Below, piece by piece: positions 56,999 to 64,000 of a stretch of 64,000 nucleotides of DNA. Within the stretch, counting starts at the first letter, position 1; the number at the start of each line of letters is the position of its first letter. Origin of the DNA: Alistipes sp. dk3624 (lineage in GTDB: Bacteria; Bacteroidota; Bacteroidia; Bacteroidales; Rikenellaceae); the NCBI RefSeq assembly GCF_009557455.1, contig NZ_CP045651.1, positions 620,001 through 684,000 of the forward strand, in the 5' to 3' direction. The notes beneath the pieces are model-generated. The model did no database searches and was not told the DNA's origin. It worked only from the letters and a program-made list of their open reading frames with translations. The translations under genes and the position numbers were made by a program.

Positions 56999-57358
56999 TC
57001 ATAGGGCGAACCGGCTCCGCTGCCGGCAAAAGCGTTCGCACTGCTGGATGATATCGTAACCGAGCATGGCCCCCAGCATGAAATCCTGCTCCGGGGTGAG
57101 CCGGTTCAGCGGCTTGTCGATAAAGGCCCGCACCGCATCCAAACAGGCGCGTTTTCCGAAATAAAGGTTCACTTTATTGTCCGTCACTTCCTGAATCAGG
57201 TACTCGATCCGCTGCCCCCGAAGCCGTTCTGCCACCAGCGCGGCGCAGGTCGGGCACATCGTGCAGAGCACCAGATTCCGAACTCCTTTCTTGAATTCGT
57301 AAATCTGGTGCATGAAGATTTTCAGTTCGCCGAAACGGACGTAATCCTGTTCGCTCAT
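56999..57358 (-). CDS. DUF2023 protein, flavodoxin partner
   Basis: This 119-residue protein matches DUF2023: FGELKIFMHQIYEFKKGVRNLVLCTMCPTC, then VNLYFGKRACLDAVRAF and LTPEQDFMLGAMLGYDIIQQCERF. It is cytoplasmic, with a possible metal-binding CTMCPTC near the N terminus. The family is found in this phylum next to flavodoxin genes, as here, where its ATG overlaps the flavodoxin stop (57355-57358). A role in flavodoxin electron transfer is inferred from the pairing only. A longer frame to 57892 in the same register overlaps flavodoxin and is rejected. Confidence 0.85.
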   Translation of the reverse strand: MSEQDYVRFGELKIFMHQIYEFKKGVRNLVLCTMCPTCAALVAERLRGQRIEYLIQEVTDNKVNLYFGKRACLDAVRAFIDKPLNRLTPEQDFMLGAMLGYDIIQQCERFCRQRSRFAL

Positions 57359-57855
57359 ACCCCTTCCTCTTTCAGTACCGCGATCCATTGCTTCAGGTGT
57401 TCCGACGAAACGGCTTCCGAGTCCGCCTCGTCGATAGCCAATCCGACGAACTTTCCGTCCTCGCACACTTTCGAATCGGTAACGGAATAGTTCTGCGGCG
57501 CGTAGGCTCCGACGAACCGACATCCCGTCCCGGCGAGCTCCTCGCGCAGAATCCCGACGGCGTCGCAGAACGTATCGGGATACATGCTGCTGTCGCCGCA
57601 TCCGAACAGTGCCACGCTCTTCCCGGACAGATCCTGCCCTTTGAGCCCTTCCAGAAAACCGAACCAATCGTCCTGCAACTCCCCGCATCCCCATGTGGAG
57701 GAGCCCAGCAGCAGGCAATCGTAACGCTGAACCGCATCCGCCGCCGCGCCGGCCACATCGTGCACGTCCGCCGCGGCGATTCCCAACTCCTCCGCGATGC
57801 GGCCGGCCAAAGAACCGGTAGTCCCGGTAGTGCTTCCGTAAAATATTCCTTTCAT
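57355..57855 (-). CDS. fldA: Flavodoxin
   Basis: This 166-residue long-chain flavodoxin carries FMN-bound low-potential electrons. The phosphate loop is GSTTGTTGS (residues 7-15). The isoalloxazine loops are SSTWGCGELQDDW and FGCGDSSMYPDTFCDAVG, and the long-chain insert is present (QNYSVTDSKVCEDGKFVGLAID). I start at the ATG at 57855; the TTG at 57861 is unlikely. TACTTTTG (57881-57888, minus strand) is a full -7 match 25 bases upstream. In many bacteria flavodoxin replaces ferredoxin under iron limitation; no Fur-like box is obvious here. Confidence 0.93.
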   Translation of the reverse strand: MKGIFYGSTTGTTGSLAGRIAEELGIAAADVHDVAGAAADAVQRYDCLLLGSSTWGCGELQDDWFGFLEGLKGQDLSGKSVALFGCGDSSMYPDTFCDAVGILREELAGTGCRFVGAYAPQNYSVTDSKVCEDGKFVGLAIDEADSEAVSSEHLKQWIAVLKEEGV

Positions 57856-57880
57856 TTCCAAATTTGTTTTTCGTTTGATG

Positions 57881-57888
57881 CAAAAGTA
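57881..57888 (-). promoter_or_regulatory. -7 box of the flavodoxin-DUF2023 pair
   Basis: TACTTTTG on the minus strand matches TAnnTTTG fully and lies 25 bases before the flavodoxin ATG. No -33 TTTG at the usual distance. Confidence 0.5.
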
Positions 57889-58025
57889 GCAAACCGGCCC
57901 CGGCGGAAAAATACCCAGAAAAAGCGAAAAAAGAGAGCCCCGATACCTAAAACCGTCAACCGAGGTCCGTTCCTTGCATTACCAACGCCTTAGAAAAGAG
58001 TGCCGTAAAAAGGGCGTTTCGCAAA

Positions 58026-58063
58026 GTAACCGTTTCGTAACAATCGCTTAACGGGAGCGTAAC
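58026..58063 (+). promoter_or_regulatory. Four-repeat Pho box upstream of pstS
   Basis: Half-sites GTAAC (58026-58030), GTAAC (58037-58041), TTAAC (58048-58052) and GTAAC (58059-58063) recur with an exact 11-bp period. PhoB/PhoP operators consist of such tandem half-sites about one helical turn apart. They end 10 bases before a -7-like TAATATTG (58074-58081), covering the place of the -33 element, as expected for an activated promoter. Confidence 0.78.
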
Positions 58064-58113
58064 AACAAACCCCTAATATTGCAACATCAATTTAACGACT
58101 AAAATTTCGAGAA

Positions 58114-59160
58114 GTGAAAAAATTGATTCTCATCGCATTGGCCGCCGTTCTGGCCGCCTGCGGACAATCTCCGAAAGGGAGCGGCCGGGAAAAACTGGCC
58201 GGCGCGGGCGCAACGTTCCCGCTGCCGTACTATAATCTTGCATTCAAGACCTATCGCGACAGCGTTCCGGCGGAAGTCTCCTACGGCGGTATCGGAAGCG
58301 GCGGCGGCATCCGCAGCCTGAAAGACCGGATCGTCGATTTCGCCGGCAGCGACGCCTACCTGACCGATGCGGAAATGGCCGCGATGCCCGACAGCGTGAT
58401 CCACATCCCGACCTGCATGGGCGCCGTGGTAATGGCCTACAACCTGCCGGGCGTGGAAAAATTGAAACTGACCGGCGAACTGGTGGCCGATATCTACCTG
58501 GGTAAAATTACCCGCTGGAACGACGCCCGCATCCGCGGGATCAACCCCAGCGTACAGCTTCCCGATCTGGAGATCCATCCGGTATACCGTTCCGACGGCA
58601 GCGGCACGACTTTCGTATTCAGCGATTACCTGACAAAAGTAAGCCCCGCATGGAAAGAGACGATCGGGGCCGGCAAATCGCTCGAATGGCCGGCCGGCCT
58701 CGCCGCCAAAGGCAATCCCGGCATATCGGGGACAGTCAGCCAGACCGAAGGGGCCGTCGGCTACATCGGGTCGGAATACGCTTTTGCACAGCATATCAGC
58801 TACGCGAGCCTGCAAAACAAGGCGGGCCGCTTCATCGACCCGACCCTCGAAAGCATCTCGGCAGCGGCCGCGGGCGACCTGCCGACCGACACGCGTTGCA
58901 TGATTACCGATCCGGACGCGGCGGACGCTTACCCGATCAGTTGCTTTACGTGGATTCTGCTGTACAAGGAACAAGGCTACGACAAGCGCACCCGCGAACA
59001 GAGCGAAGCCCTCGTCGACTTGCTCGGATGGATGCTCGGCAGCCAAGCGCAGGATCTGGCCGGCAAGGTCAATTACGCCCCGCTGCCGCAACAGGTGATC
59101 GACAACGGGCGCGCACAACTGGGCACAGTTACGTATAAAGGAGAAAAACTGCTGAAGTAA
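58114..59160 (+). CDS. pstS: Phosphate-binding lipoprotein PstS
   Basis: This 348-residue protein binds periplasmic phosphate for the PstCAB transporter. The signal MKKLILIALAAVLAAC ends in lipobox LAAC (C16), so it is membrane-anchored. Ligand-site segments are GAGATFPLPYYNLAF, YGGIGSGGGIRSL, and YRSDGSGTTFVFSDY. The start is GTG (58114); I see no in-frame ATG that would keep the signal peptide. It overlaps pstC by one base (TAATG). The upstream Pho box makes phosphate-starvation control by the PhoB-like regulator encoded in the same operon very likely. Confidence 0.96.
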   Translation: MKKLILIALAAVLAACGQSPKGSGREKLAGAGATFPLPYYNLAFKTYRDSVPAEVSYGGIGSGGGIRSLKDRIVDFAGSDAYLTDAEMAAMPDSVIHIPTCMGAVVMAYNLPGVEKLKLTGELVADIYLGKITRWNDARIRGINPSVQLPDLEIHPVYRSDGSGTTFVFSDYLTKVSPAWKETIGAGKSLEWPAGLAAKGNPGISGTVSQTEGAVGYIGSEYAFAQHISYASLQNKAGRFIDPTLESISAAAAGDLPTDTRCMITDPDAADAYPISCFTWILLYKEQGYDKRTREQSEALVDLLGWMLGSQAQDLAGKVNYAPLPQQVIDNGRAQLGTVTYKGEKLLK

Positions 59161-60026
59161 TGATCCGCACAGCCGCACGCGACCGTATTTTCAAAGGACT
59201 GCTGCTGGCGGCGGCGGCCGCCATCATACTGATCTGCGGGGGAATGTTCTACTCGCTGATCAGCGGAGCGGCGCCGGCGTTCGACCATTTCGGCTTTTTC
59301 CGCTTCATCGCCTCGTCGGACTGGAACCCGAAGACCGGCTCCGAAAGCTACGGGGCGCTGCCGTTCATCGCGGGGACCGTGCTGACTTCGCTGCTGGCCA
59401 TGCTGTTCTGCCTTCCGCTGTCGCTGCCGGTCGCCCTTTTCACCGGCGAATATTTCCGGGGCCGGCGGATCGCGAAAGTAATCGGTACGGTGATCGACCT
59501 GCTGGCCGGCATCCCGTCGATCGTCTACGGGCTGTGGGGATTCTACGTGATCCGGCCGGTGATCGTCGACCTGGGACTGTCGTCGCAGGGATTCGGCATC
59601 CTGACCGCATCGGTCGTACTGGCGATCATGGTGATCCCGTATGCCGCGTCGCTCAGTTCGGAGTTTATCTCGATGGTGTCGCGCGAACTGAAAGAAGGAG
59701 CGTACAGCCTCGGCGGAACGCGGCTCGACGTGATCCGCCGCGTCGTCTTTCCGGTCGCCGGGTCGGGTATTTTCGCCAGTTACGTGCTGGCGCTCGGGCG
59801 TGCGCTCGGCGAGACGATGGCCGTCACGATGCTGATCGGTAACACGAACCTGATTCCGACCGGCCTGACCGCCACCGGCAACACGATGGCCAGCGTCATC
59901 GCCAACCAGTTCGGCGAGGCCGACGGGCTGAAGCTCAGCTCGCTCGTCGCCATCGGGCTGCTGCTTTTCATTATCACCGCCGTAATCAACCTGATCGGGC
60001 GGCTCATTCTTCGTAAATTCCGATAA
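59160..60026 (+). CDS. pstC: Phosphate ABC transporter permease PstC
   Basis: This 288-residue permease has six membrane helices. The BPD_transp_1 coupling region is SLSSEFISMVSRELKEGAYSLGGTR followed by GRALGETMAVTMLIGN, the usual EAA-type loop of PstC. The pore segment LLAGIPSIVYGLWGFYVI is family-typical. It pairs with PstA in the inner membrane and starts on the last base of the pstS stop codon. It ends 2 bases before pstA. Confidence 0.96.
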   Translation: MIRTAARDRIFKGLLLAAAAAIILICGGMFYSLISGAAPAFDHFGFFRFIASSDWNPKTGSESYGALPFIAGTVLTSLLAMLFCLPLSLPVALFTGEYFRGRRIAKVIGTVIDLLAGIPSIVYGLWGFYVIRPVIVDLGLSSQGFGILTASVVLAIMVIPYAASLSSEFISMVSRELKEGAYSLGGTRLDVIRRVVFPVAGSGIFASYVLALGRALGETMAVTMLIGNTNLIPTGLTATGNTMASVIANQFGEADGLKLSSLVAIGLLLFIITAVINLIGRLILRKFR

Positions 60027-60028
60027 CT

Positions 60029-60907
60029 ATGACGATAACGGTTCCTAAATCGCGGACGCGGTTCCGCAAGGCGAAAGAACGGGCGTTCTTCTACGTGGTC
60101 TGCGGATTCTCGCTGCTCACGGCCGTCCCGCTGCTGCTGATCATCTGGGAAGTGGTGCGCAAGGGATACCGGCAGATCTCGCTGTCGTTCTTCACCGAGA
60201 ACGCGCCGAGCACGCTGGACGCGATGCTGGCCAAAACGGCCGGCGAGTCGATCCCCGGAGGCATCGCGAACGGCATCCTCGGCACGCTGTCGATGACGCT
60301 GATCGCGGCGCTGATCGCGATCCCGTCGGGGATTCTCGCAGGAGTTTACCTGTCAGAAAAGCGTAAAACGGCGTTCGCAGGCATCGTACGTTTTCTGACC
60401 GAACTGCTGCAAGGCACCCCGTCGATCGTGATCGGGATCATCGCCTACGCCTGGATCGTCGTACCGCTGGGCAGTTACTCGATGCTGGCCGGCAGCGTGG
60501 CGCTTGCCGGAATCATGCTGCCGCTGATCGTCCGCTCGACCGAGGAGACGCTGAATATGCTGCCTTCACCGCTGAAAGAAGCCGGGCTGGCGCTCGGAGC
60601 GCCTTACCGCTCGGTCGTGATGCGTATTCTGGTGCCGTCGGCTTTCGGCGGGATGTTCACCGGCATCCTGCTGGCCGTATCGCGGGCGATGGGCGAAACC
60701 GCCCCGCTGATGCTGACCGCGCTGGGCTGCGCAACGCTGAACTTCGACCCGCTGCACCCCACTTCGGCCGTTCCGCTGCTGATCTGGGAGTTCTACAACG
60801 ATCCGAACCTCGTCGACCTGATCTGGGGCTGCTCGCTGCTGCTGCTGATCCTGACGCTGGTGCTGAATATCATTGCCAAACGAATCGCTGCAAAATGGAA
60901 AATCTGA
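60029..60907 (+). CDS. pstA: Phosphate ABC transporter permease PstA
   Basis: This 292-residue permease has six helices. Family segments are ELLQGTPSIVIGIIAYAWIVVPLGSYS, STEETLNMLPSPLKEAGLALGA (EAA coupling loop) and VSRAMGETAPLMLTALG. It completes the membrane channel with PstC. Its end overlaps pstB by 13 bases, so translation of the ATPase is coupled to it. Confidence 0.96.
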   Translation: MTITVPKSRTRFRKAKERAFFYVVCGFSLLTAVPLLLIIWEVVRKGYRQISLSFFTENAPSTLDAMLAKTAGESIPGGIANGILGTLSMTLIAALIAIPSGILAGVYLSEKRKTAFAGIVRFLTELLQGTPSIVIGIIAYAWIVVPLGSYSMLAGSVALAGIMLPLIVRSTEETLNMLPSPLKEAGLALGAPYRSVVMRILVPSAFGGMFTGILLAVSRAMGETAPLMLTALGCATLNFDPLHPTSAVPLLIWEFYNDPNLVDLIWGCSLLLLILTLVLNIIAKRIAAKWKI

Positions 60908-61656
60908 AACTGCAAATAAACGACCTGTCGGTCGCCTACACTCCGGAAAAACTGGCCGTGAAACACGTCACGACGGGCATCCTCGAACGGACGATCACGG
61001 CGATCATGGGCCCGTCGGGCTGCGGTAAAAGCACGCTGCTGCGGGCGATCAACCGTATGCACGAGCTCTATCCGGACATCCGCGTAACGGGCGAAATCCT
61101 GCTCGACGAACGAAATATATTCAAAATGAATCCGATGGAGGTGAGACGGATGGCCGGCATGGTGTTCCAGCGGCCGAACCCGTTCCCGACGATGAGCATT
61201 TACGACAACGTGCTGGCCGGATACAAGCTGAACGGCATCCGGTTGTCGAAAGCGCAGAAGGACGAGATCGTCGAAACGAGCCTTACGAGCGTCGGACTCT
61301 GGAGCGAAGTGCGCGATTCGCTGTTCCGCAAAGGAGGATTCCTCTCCGGCGGACAGCAGCAACGGCTGTGCATCGCCCGCGCGATCGCGCTGAAACCCGA
61401 AGTGCTGCTGATGGACGAACCGACCTCGGCGCTCGACCCGATCGCGACGCACCGCGTCGAAGAGCTGATGCTCGAACTGAAAAAAGAGTTCACGATCGTT
61501 ATCGTAACGCACAATATGGCGCAGGCGGCGCGTATCTCGGACTACTCGCTGTTCATGTACCTCGGCGAGCTGGTCGAATCCGGCCGCACGCAAAACCTGT
61601 TCACCACACCGAAAGACAAACGGACCGAAGAGTACCTCTCCGGCCAGTTCGGATAA
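60895..61656 (+). CDS. pstB: Phosphate ABC transporter ATPase PstB
   Basis: This 253-residue ATPase energises phosphate uptake. It has Walker A GPSGCGKST (39-47), Q-loop MVFQRPNPFPTMSIYDNV, signature LSGGQ (150-154), Walker B VLLMDEPTSALDP and the switch histidine in VTHNMAQAARISD. The QRPNPFPTMSIYDNV segment is specific for PstB. It lies between pstA (overlapping) and phoU (13 bases after). Confidence 0.97.
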   Translation: MENLKLQINDLSVAYTPEKLAVKHVTTGILERTITAIMGPSGCGKSTLLRAINRMHELYPDIRVTGEILLDERNIFKMNPMEVRRMAGMVFQRPNPFPTMSIYDNVLAGYKLNGIRLSKAQKDEIVETSLTSVGLWSEVRDSLFRKGGFLSGGQQQRLCIARAIALKPEVLLMDEPTSALDPIATHRVEELMLELKKEFTIVIVTHNMAQAARISDYSLFMYLGELVESGRTQNLFTTPKDKRTEEYLSGQFG

Positions 61657-61669
61657 AAACACACCTATT

Positions 61670-62353
61670 ATGAACCGATTGAAAGACACCGTTTTAAAAC
61701 CGGTAGGCGACCAGTTCGACCGGCTGACCGAACTCATCCTGAGACAACTCTCCATCACCCGGCAACTGCTCGCGGGAAATTCGTCCGCCGAACTGCGCGA
61801 CGAACTGAACCGCAACGAAAGCGCGATCGACGGCCTGGAAGTCTCGATCCGCGACGAAGTGGTCAACGTGATCGTACTGCACGCGCCGCGCGCCTCGAAC
61901 CTGCGGATCATCATGGCCTGCTACGATACGACCTCGAATCTGGAGCGCATCGGCGACCTGATCCACAACGTCTACGAATTCACCGGCGGCACGGCCGTCA
62001 GCACCGGACTGTACCGCCGCAAAAGCGACGGACTGCTCAAAATGTTCGACCTGGCGGCGGATATGGTGAAAAACGTTATTTTTGCGATGAACTGCAGCGA
62101 CGAACGGCTGGCGCGCGAAGTGATCCGCAGCGACGACCGCGTGGACGAATGGTGGCGGCGGATTTCCGGCGAGTTGAAAAGCACGGGAACCCAGCGGACG
62201 CTGACGGCCGAAGAGATGGAAGGGATGCTGTCGGTTTTCGGCATCGCGAACAACCTCGAACGCATCGGCGACCAGGCGACGAACATCGCCGAGGCGGTGA
62301 TTTTCGTTACCGAAGGGAAAGACATCAAGCACACGGACAAAAACCTGTTGTAA
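61670..62353 (+). CDS. phoU: Phosphate signalling protein PhoU
   Basis: This 227-residue helical protein has two PhoU repeats, each with the metal-binding ERIGD motif: DTTSNLERIGDLIHNVYEF and GIANNLERIGDQATNIAEAV. It links the Pst transporter to the PhoR kinase and keeps the regulon off when phosphate is sufficient. Position between pstB and phoB is the normal one. It ends 2 bases before the phoB ATG. Confidence 0.95.
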   Translation: MNRLKDTVLKPVGDQFDRLTELILRQLSITRQLLAGNSSAELRDELNRNESAIDGLEVSIRDEVVNVIVLHAPRASNLRIIMACYDTTSNLERIGDLIHNVYEFTGGTAVSTGLYRRKSDGLLKMFDLAADMVKNVIFAMNCSDERLAREVIRSDDRVDEWWRRISGELKSTGTQRTLTAEEMEGMLSVFGIANNLERIGDQATNIAEAVIFVTEGKDIKHTDKNLL

Positions 62354-62355
62354 AA

Positions 62356-63039
62356 ATGGCAAAACGCGAGAAAATACTGGTCGTGGACGACGAACAGGAT
62401 CTGTGCGAGATCCTGCGCTTCAACCTCGAATGCGAAGGGTTCGCCGTCGAAACGGCCGAATCGGCCGAGCAGGCCCTGAAAATGCTGCCGGACGGCTACG
62501 ACCTGATCCTGCTGGACGTGATGATGGAAGGGATGTCGGGATTCCGGATGGCAGAAAAGGTGCGCAAGGAGCAGAAACTGCAAGTTCCGATCGTCTTCCT
62601 GACGGCCAAGGACACCGAAAACGACCTGCTCACCGGATTCAGCCTCGGAGGGGACGACTACATTCCGAAACCGTTCTCGATCAAGGAAGTGACGGCCCGC
62701 GTAAAGGCCGTGCTGAAACGGAGCGCCGCAGCGCCGGCCGATACGAACCGTACGATCGAACTGGGCGAACTGACGATCGATCCCGAAACCAAGAGCGCGA
62801 CGCTCGGCAACGAACACATCCTGCTGACCAAAAAGGAGTTCGAAATCCTTATGACGCTGGCGCGGACTCCGAACAAGGTTTTTTCGCGGGAGGATATTCT
62901 CGAACGCGTCTGGAAAAAGGAGTCCTACGTGCTCGAACGCACCGTAGACGTGCACATCACACGGCTGCGCAAAAAACTGGGAACGTTCGGCGAACGCCTG
63001 ACGAACCGTTCCGGATATGGATACTGCATCGAATTTTAA
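62356..63039 (+). CDS. phoB: PhoB-like OmpR-family response regulator
   Basis: This 227-residue regulator has a receiver domain (LVVDDEQDLCEIL, D54 in LILLDVMMEGMSG, conserved K in YIPKPFS) and a C-terminal winged helix (about 133-227, LTKKEFEILMTLARTPNKVFSREDILERVWKKE, VDVHITRLRKKLG). Operon context with pst, phoU and a PhoR-like kinase makes it the phosphate regulator, and the Pho box before pstS is its likely operator. The start at 62356 (MAKREKILVVDDE) is used; the longer frame lies within phoU. Confidence 0.94.
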   Translation: MAKREKILVVDDEQDLCEILRFNLECEGFAVETAESAEQALKMLPDGYDLILLDVMMEGMSGFRMAEKVRKEQKLQVPIVFLTAKDTENDLLTGFSLGGDDYIPKPFSIKEVTARVKAVLKRSAAAPADTNRTIELGELTIDPETKSATLGNEHILLTKKEFEILMTLARTPNKVFSREDILERVWKKESYVLERTVDVHITRLRKKLGTFGERLTNRSGYGYCIEF

Positions 63040-63058
63040 CCCGATAACCGATACCGCC

Positions 63059-64000
63059 ATGATGCGCCTGAGCTATCGAAAAAAACTGTTTTTTTACTTC
63101 CTGATCGTATTCGCCGTTTTCGCGGCGATCGTCGTCTTCGTCCAGCAAAACCGCGAACGAACCTTCAGAAACGACGAGTTCAAACGGGGAATGGACGTTT
63201 ACGCGACGCTGATCTCGAAATACATCGCCGAAAACCATCTGACCGCTCCGGATTCGATGTCCCGGCTTGACAGCCTGCTGCCGCTGCTGCCCCGGGATCT
63301 GCGGATAAGCATCATCGACCGGCGCGGCAACGTGCTGTTCGACAACGGCTCCGACGGAAAACCGATCGTCGAGAACCACCTGTCGCGGCCCGAAATCGCC
63401 CAAGCGCTGATCCGCGGCGGCGGAAGCCACATTCGGCACTCGGCAACCACCGGAAAAACTTATTATTACTATGCGCGGCTGTTCGGCAACGATTTCGTCC
63501 GGGTGGCGCTGCCTTACGACAACGCGGCGAAACTGAGCCTGAAAGCGGACGATTTCTTTCTTTATTTCATGTTGCTGCTTTTCTTTGTCGCGCTGATCTC
63601 GTTGCTGTACCTGTCCGACCGTTTCGGCAAGGCGGTCAGCGGATTGCGCGACTTTCTGGTCTCGACCGAGAACAACCGTCCCGATTTCGACAAGGTCAGA
63701 TTCCCGGATACCGAACTCGGCGAGATAGGCAACCGCATCGTCACCAATTACCGGCTGCTGCGCGAAAGCCGCAACCTGCTCGATACGGAACGTGAAAAAC
63801 TGATCCGCCACTTCCACTATTCGGACGAGGGAATCTGCATCTTTTCGCCGGACGGAGACAAAATTTATGCGAACTCGCACTTCATACAGCACCTCAACAC
63901 GATCCTCGACGAACCGACCTCCGACGCGACCGCAATTCTCCGGGCCAAAGATTTCGGCGACCTGCGCGAATTCCTGCAACGGCACCGGCCGGTCAACCCG
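63059..64000 (+). CDS. phoR: PhoR-like sensor histidine kinase, N-terminal part
   Basis: The gene runs off the window after 314 codons. It starts with ATGATG at 63059, 19 bases after phoB. The visible part has a membrane helix (about 10-28, LFFYFLIVFAVFAAIVVFV) and a periplasmic domain of about 130 residues (LPLLPRDLRISIIDRRGNVLFDNGSDGK is typical of this phylum's PhoR-like kinases). A second helix (about 163-182, FFLYFMLLLFFVALISLLYL), a HAMP-like linker and the start of a PAS domain (SDEGICIFSPDGDKIYANSHF) follow. The kinase core lies outside the window. The role is inferred from position behind phoB. Confidence 0.9.
   Translation, partial: MMRLSYRKKLFFYFLIVFAVFAAIVVFVQQNRERTFRNDEFKRGMDVYATLISKYIAENHLTAPDSMSRLDSLLPLLPRDLRISIIDRRGNVLFDNGSDGKPIVENHLSRPEIAQALIRGGGSHIRHSATTGKTYYYYARLFGNDFVRVALPYDNAAKLSLKADDFFLYFMLLLFFVALISLLYLSDRFGKAVSGLRDFLVSTENNRPDFDKVRFPDTELGEIGNRIVTNYRLLRESRNLLDTEREKLIRHFHYSDEGICIFSPDGDKIYANSHFIQHLNTILDEPTSDATAILRAKDFGDLREFLQRHRPVNP

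Follow-up and report, generated by a model that had tools for sequence, protein, structure and literature searches.

A predicted PhoB operator and promoter upstream of the pst-pho genes in an Alistipes genome: four half-sites at 11 bp, linked by 10 bp to a TAnnTTTG element, that recur in Bacteroidota

Introduction

Many binding sites of OmpR-family regulators are direct repeats of roughly 11 bp. The PhoP box of Bacillus subtilis consists of TTAACA-like half-sites at about 11 bp, usually four, in a Gram-positive promoter context, and in Escherichia coli PhoB contacts region 4 of the sigma factor. In the passages available, two or more repeats are given as the binding site of E. coli PhoB. Promoters of the Bacteroidota follow the consensus TAnnTTTG with TTTG near -33, according to the accessible parts of two studies (PMC7366714, PMC2483708).

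Within this phylum, the accessible text on Flavobacterium johnsoniae reports induction of TonB-dependent receptors and phoB by low phosphate (PMC8115612). A marine lipid-remodelling study that includes Flavobacteria places putative Pho boxes in plcP clusters, the excerpts available giving neither their sequence nor an indication that flavobacterial sites are among them. In Riemerella anatipestifer, the accessible sections report a DAP-seq motif for PhoP in which TTTAACA are the most conserved letters and which is similar to the ArcA motif, and the protein shifts promoters including one of a TonB-dependent receptor (PMC9603813). In the double mutant pstS was 8-fold higher (PMC5399024, excerpt), and Riemerella PhoP may not be the Pho activator. 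Neither a definition of the Bacteroidota operator nor a tie of a Pho box to a -7 TAnnTTTG promoter was found among the top-listed open journal papers, seen in part, to which the search was confined.

Here we describe a four-half-site array upstream of pstS in Alistipes sp. dk3624. It lies in the window, by which we mean the whole 64-kb stretch of DNA analysed.

Results

The array and promoter element upstream of pstS

The original prediction was that GTAAC, GTAAC, TTAAC and GTAAC recur at 11 bp before a -7-like element, and this arrangement was recovered exactly. The features of the locus are as follows.

58026..58030, + strand: half-site 1, GTAAC (read from the sequence and found by pattern search)
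58037..58041, + strand: half-site 2, GTAAC (read from the sequence and found by pattern search)
58048..58052, + strand: half-site 3, TTAAC, in the expected place of the -33 TTTG element
58059..58063, + strand: half-site 4, GTAAC, ending 10 bp before the -7 element, a gap that recurs in relatives
58074..58081, + strand: -7 element TAATATTG, TAnnTTTG with one mismatch
58114..59160, + strand: pstS, phosphate-binding lipoprotein, GTG start (TIGR00975, 348 bits, cut-off 205)
59160..60026, + strand: pstC, permease (TIGR02138, 283 bits, cut-off 196)
60029..60907, + strand: pstA, permease (TIGR00974, 225 bits, cut-off 193)
60895..61656, + strand: pstB, ATPase (TIGR00972, 352 bits, cut-off 343)
61670..62353, + strand: phoU (TIGR02135, 123.6 bits, slightly below the cut-off of 130.25)
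62356..63039, + strand: phoB, response regulator and proposed ligand of the array (NF053854, Bacteroidota PhoB, 337 bits, cut-off 270)
63017..64000, + strand: phoR, sensor kinase, cut by the end of the window (NF053855, 239 bits, positions 1-308 of 583)

The half-sites start at 58026, 58037, 58048 and 58059, an exact 11-bp period, and the three 6-bp spacers between them differ from one another. The sequence over 58074-58082 reads TAATATTGC, and the GTG start of pstS follows the -7 element by 32 bp. The seven genes from pstS to phoR share a strand, neighbours overlapping or lying no more than 13 bp apart, and are probably co-transcribed; the phoR score is below the NF053855 cut-off of 500 in a frame truncated by the window end. 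The locus combines several properties of a Pho box: direct half-sites at 11 bp, a 10-bp distance to a core promoter element, an encoded cognate PhoB and, judged by gene content alone, a position before phosphate-acquisition genes.

Of the two elements of the primary-sigma consensus, TAnnTTTG is represented by TAATATTG with its single mismatch, and TTTG at -33 was absent on inspection of 58040 to 58073; the assignment of half-site 3 to the -33 place follows from the -7 and -33 labels of the TAnnTTTG/TTTG consensus. An identical TAATATTG stands 10 bp after an array in seven other loci (L286, L288, L290, L291, L294, L297 and L357). A sigma-70 promoter scan of 57800-64000 gave no prediction at the array or the -7 site, as expected for a phylum with another promoter consensus.

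The array is located between pstS and a divergent flavodoxin gene (57355-57861, minus strand). Just upstream of the latter, TACTTTTG (57881-57888, minus strand) is a perfect match to the -7 consensus, and the flavodoxin promoter appears to be separate from the Pho array.

A search of the window for four half-sites, with up to 3 mismatches allowed, gave a single match, and none of 100 dinucleotide-preserving shuffles contained one. In the 3.02-Mb genome, the full pattern of four half-sites, 10 bp and -7 element (up to 3 mismatches) was matched at one place and its control at none. Patterns of only two or three half-sites showed no excess over the control across the genome (16 vs 17 and 19 vs 17), so that significance in the genome rests on the full array and not on shorter patterns. 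Elsewhere in the same genome (C1:227873-227910; L033, L037), an open frame contains a tandem repeat of 11 bp that mimics half-sites, a false positive to allow for in scans.

Conservation of the period upstream of pstS orthologues

Conservation of the repeat period before related pstS genes, the check that the original prediction had proposed, was borne out: in 13 of 30 Bacteroidota pstS orthologues, the 450 bp upstream contain an array with period 11 and 13 or more of its 16 positions matched, whereas none of the 30 has one at periods 8-10 or 12-16. In 100 rounds of mononucleotide shuffling of these loci, the mean count was 0.22 and the maximum 2. The 30 were the Bacteroidota loci out of 80 fetched by protein; L295, whose match begins 34 bases from the locus end, was omitted, L301, titled Ignavibacteria, was kept, and the near-identical loci L294/L297 and L300/L302/L305 were counted separately. 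Odoribacter laneus, Porphyromonas uenonis and Alkalitalea saponilacus are named examples that bear the array. The other 17 orthologues had no strong array (at least 13/16) within 450 bp upstream; in two of them, L293 and L298, an array lies 1.1-1.2 kb upstream instead.

When the test was widened to 44 of the 80 loci, at least 13/16 matches at period 11 were reached in 15, at period 15 in one, and at the remaining periods between 7 and 16 in none. Besides the 13 of Bacteroidota, the period-11 loci comprise one from a cyanobacterium (L326) and one from a metagenome-assembled genome with the title Treponema (L312), and these two speak against an array strictly specific to the phylum. In L312 an array with 13/16 matches lies about 169 bp upstream of pstS and is followed, after 10 bp, by TATCTTTT; either the contig is wrongly binned or the plan is not confined to Bacteroidota.

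Closer to the window, a protein search of family genomes for pstS homologues gave a match in 28 of 61. The array plan was kept upstream in L006, L013, L017 and L027, where PstS is only about 27-31% identical; L027 has TTAAC, GTAAC, TTAAC and GTAAC, then 10 bp, then TAATTTTG. In several other relatives the array lies about 1 kb upstream, before a gene that precedes pstS and was called porin-like from reading of translations and the Pfam tally.

At least one array of 13/16 matches or better, on either strand, was present in 37 of a set of 61 protein-fetched loci (L001-L030 and 31 of the 80 above). Among 50 assignments of a -7 element with a score of 5 or 6, a tally that counts shifted registers of one array separately, the gap to the array was 10 bp in 37, 21 bp (one half-site further) in 8, 8 bp in 3, and 7 and 19 bp in one each.

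Pattern scans of the phylum, order, family and genus

Genomes were scanned with TAAC four times at 11 bp, N10 and TAnnTTTG, the reversed pattern serving as the control; place and control totals were counted from printed rows. The original prediction had offered the site as a searchable operator model, and it proved to be one: at up to 2 mismatches the pattern matched 85 of 395 phylum genomes, in 64 of 171 genera, at 111 places in total, and the control gave 0. Two of these places (L192, L196) are plain tandem repeats. No match at this stringency was found in 310 of the 395 genomes, including all those of the heavily sampled family f19 (86 genomes, counted by hand).

At up to 3 mismatches, the window's family gave 110 places in 81 of 200 genomes and 18 of 22 genera (control, 9); one place, identical in sequence to another, was merged, leaving 109 family sites. 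The window's own site is present in both the family and the phylum scans. Matches occurred in 3 of 9 genomes of its genus at up to 3 mismatches. At the order level the 3-mismatch pattern is noisy: of 159 genomes, 79 had matches, at 133 places in all, and the control gave 62 places in 35. Absence of TTTG at -33 among pattern matches is uninformative, because the pattern itself fixes those bases.

The model NF053854 failed as a phylum-wide test of co-occurrence: its cut-off was passed in only 6 of 395 genomes, all of the window's order. Apart from the window's genome, none of the five other positive genomes showed an array when 2 mismatches were allowed; two of them, G429 and G546, were covered by the order scan and matched at 3 mismatches. 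In G429 the curated phoB starts 76 bp downstream of the array (L393).

Genes downstream of the arrays

Among open frames of 150 aa or more, the first began at a median of 31 bp after the -7 element in the family (107 frames) and 33.5 bp in the phylum (102 frames). Pfam matches in 108 scanned family frames comprised PHO4/Pit in 24, TonB plug in 20, Na/Pi cotransporter in 7, PstS-type in 7, Porin_O_P (phosphate-selective porin) in 5, DUF5690 in 4, a response regulator with an OmpR-type C-terminus in 2 and alkaline phosphatase in 1. In 107 phylum frames they comprised TonB plug in 50, PstS-type in 8 and Porin_O_P in 6, with single phosphate-related genes such as phytase-like and DUF47 also present (first 25 of 45 families). 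These counts are lowered by some scanned frames that are spurious readings in the wrong frame; four phylum loci without a downstream open frame (L185, L186, L200, L227) and one repeated family frame (L159) were left out.

Clustering of 215 downstream proteins at 90 bits or more gave 67 TonB-dependent receptors, 26 porin-like proteins, 25 Pit transporters, two PstS groups of 9 and 6, and 7 Na/Pi transporters, the names being taken from Pfam and reading of translations. The downstream-gene tallies are raw counts. The arrays also precede regulator genes at L163 and L167.

Pit/PHO4 transporters are usually regarded as constitutive. A PHO4/Pit gene behind the array (L050-L079, L096-L117, L159) was seen in many genomes, mostly of genus g22 of the family. 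Among the phylum hits L177-L285, the commonest first gene encodes a TonB-dependent receptor with a carboxypeptidase-regulatory-like domain, in the cluster of 67 drawn from both scans, and this cluster is a candidate phosphate or phosphoester receptor family. TonB-dependent receptors behind arrays fit the low-phosphate induction reported in the accessible text on F. johnsoniae (PMC8115612).

Four arrays (L232, L239, L246, L256) precede a CDP-glycerol glycerophosphotransferase-like gene, one cluster of 4, and Glyphos_transf was matched in 3 of the 107 phylum frames; from these gene assignments, the arrangement would suggest phosphate control of a step in surface polymer or lipid synthesis. Four others (L124, L147, L150, L174) precede a presumed DUF5690 membrane protein (4 of 108, a cluster of 4). 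In genome G067 two divergent arrays, L173 and L174, lie about 380 bp apart.

Half-site consensus and the regulon of the window's genome

Positions left free in the pattern were tabulated, with L192 and L196 omitted. Across 109 sites, TAAC is followed by A in 55 to 77%. The first TAAC is preceded by T in 71% of the 109, and at the other three T is again the most frequent preceding base (44 to 62%), G ranking second or close to it. These preferences yield the fuller half-site (G/T)TAACA.

A matrix trained without L192, L196 and the window's own site (L176) scored that site at 37.8 bits. The next window positions scored 0.5 (the array shifted by one repeat) and -3.4 (the next independent position), and across 30 mononucleotide shuffles of the + strand no position scored above 2.7. 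The matrix covered the window together with the fetched loci, and the genome-wide statement rests on the 3-mismatch pattern.

Contrary to the further phosphate-regulated genes that a genome scan had been proposed to reveal, no second strong site was found in the window's genome. The best matrix score around its Pit gene was 1.7 bits, with no convincing array; neither of its two porin hits has a convincing array; and a search for a Na/Pi cotransporter found none. On that basis, the strong operator in this genome serves one gene string, its own regulator included.

Two or three half-sites were rejected as a finder of the regulon of this genome, since counts were at the control level. Four weak candidates from that search are not claimed: L041 (23.6 bits), L087 (near C1:1177566, 20.6 bits), L084 (16.1 bits) and L080. 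By reading of translations, L087 precedes a calcineurin-type phosphoesterase-like gene and L080 a DedA-like gene; L087 is a possible second member of the regulon.

Proposed mechanism and alternatives

We propose, with a probability of about 0.88, that the pst-pho operon is controlled from this array as its Pho operator and promoter, with PhoB as activator in place of the -33 contact. The gene string, the curated PhoB, the period, the 10-bp gap and the scan targets all support the Pho-box reading of the original prediction, as does the binding of Bacteroides fragilis PhoB to its pst promoter fragment (PMC3547664). The orthologues and genomes that lack an array, the single strong site in the window's genome, the TAAC-type motif of Riemerella PhoP and the noise of the order scan weigh against it. 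Under phosphate limitation, PhoR would phosphorylate PhoB, which would bind the four 11-bp half-sites head-to-tail, probably as two tandem dimers. As half-site 3 covers the place of the -33 TTTG, PhoB would substitute for the missing -33 contact and recruit RNA polymerase with the primary Bacteroidota sigma factor. Since phoB and phoR belong to the same gene string, the switch would be self-reinforcing.

The number of working half-sites allows a variant of this proposal, compatible with it and in our view unlikely: PhoB binds, with only the two proximal half-sites functional and the distal pair accessory, or the array also represses at high phosphate. The minimum of two repeats described for E. 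coli PhoB in the passages available agrees with it, as does the degeneration of at least one of the four half-sites before the gap in some relatives (L286, L308). Distal half-sites in the phylum were matched about as well as proximal ones, a weak counterargument because the pattern demanded all four.

The identity of the ligand bears on a second alternative. The TAAC core alone is no proof of PhoB, because the Riemerella PhoP motif TTTAACA, as far as the accessible sections go, belongs to a regulator whose mutant had raised pstS. The array could then be an operator of another OmpR-family regulator that reads TTAAC at 11 bp (ArcA-, RprY- or Riemerella PhoP-like); the ArcA-like character of that motif and the rise in pstS on deletion of the system, both from excerpts, speak for such a regulator, and others exist in the window's genome, where the PhoB model has 21 matches, many covering only the receiver part. 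Against this, the regulator gene within the string is a curated PhoB, and blind scans fall before phosphate transporters, porins, PstS and PhoB itself, which leaves another ligand improbable. The least credible reading, a very slight possibility, is that the repeat arose by chance or tandem duplication and has no role in regulation, for although pure 11-bp tandem repeats do match elsewhere (L192, L196; a coding region at L033, L037), here the 6-bp spacers differ, shuffles give no such array and the layout recurs in relatives.

Discussion

Beyond the PhoB-activated operator of the window, it seems reasonably likely that one grammar, (G/T)TAACA four times at 11 bp followed by 10 bp and TAnnTTTG, serves much of the Bacteroidota, with PhoB replacing the -33 contact of a divergent primary sigma factor in the E. 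coli geometry, one TonB-dependent receptor family as the commonest target in the phylum, and often Pit in the window's family. If this is true, active phosphate uptake across the outer membrane would be a core of the Pho response in Bacteroidota. The pattern offers a specific, low-noise means of finding phosphate-controlled genes in a phylum with non-textbook promoters, and opens to experiment the question of how PhoB works with a primary sigma factor whose core promoter is unusual.

Comparison with known Pho boxes

The E. coli PhoB Pho box likewise consists of 11-bp direct repeats placed 10 bp upstream of the -10 element, according to the excerpts available (PMC1906773, PMC4415409), and likewise precedes pst and pho genes. 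It differs in its half-site, which is CTGTCAT-like in E. coli and (G/T)TAAC here, no half-site of the E. coli type being found; in the downstream element, a sigma-70 -10 hexamer as opposed to TAnnTTTG; and in the number of half-sites, which here is four. The B. subtilis PhoP box is alike in its TTAACA-like, approximately 11-bp, four-site plan and different in promoter context.

The cyanobacterial SphR box, in the passages available, consists of three or more CTTAACCT repeats, each 8 bp long and separated by 3-bp linkers, which gives an 11-bp period, and has the same TTAAC core. Set against CTTAACCT, the array agrees in period and TAAC core, and CTTAAC occurs only at half-site 3, where GG follows. 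A Pleurocapsales pstS locus reached 15/16 array matches in the period test. The SphR box belongs to another phylum and promoter type, and those passages do not describe a coupling to TAnnTTTG for it.

In the same phylum, Bacteroides fragilis PhoB binds a 512-bp pst promoter fragment, and pstC at low phosphate requires PhoB; the accessible text leaves its site in that promoter undefined (PMC3547664), in contrast to the defined array described here. For Riemerella PhoP, the accessible sections report neither a repeat architecture nor a link to pstS (PMC9603813), unlike the array here. The original prediction offered the half-site as part of a specific operator model for the phylum. Its core is not specific to the phylum, being shared with cyanobacterial Pho boxes and a Riemerella regulator; its coupling to TAnnTTTG looks specific. 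The array is a widespread variant, within the Bacteroidota, of a well-known kind of operator, and what the analysis usefully adds is its recurring 10-bp link to TAnnTTTG together with the list of its targets.
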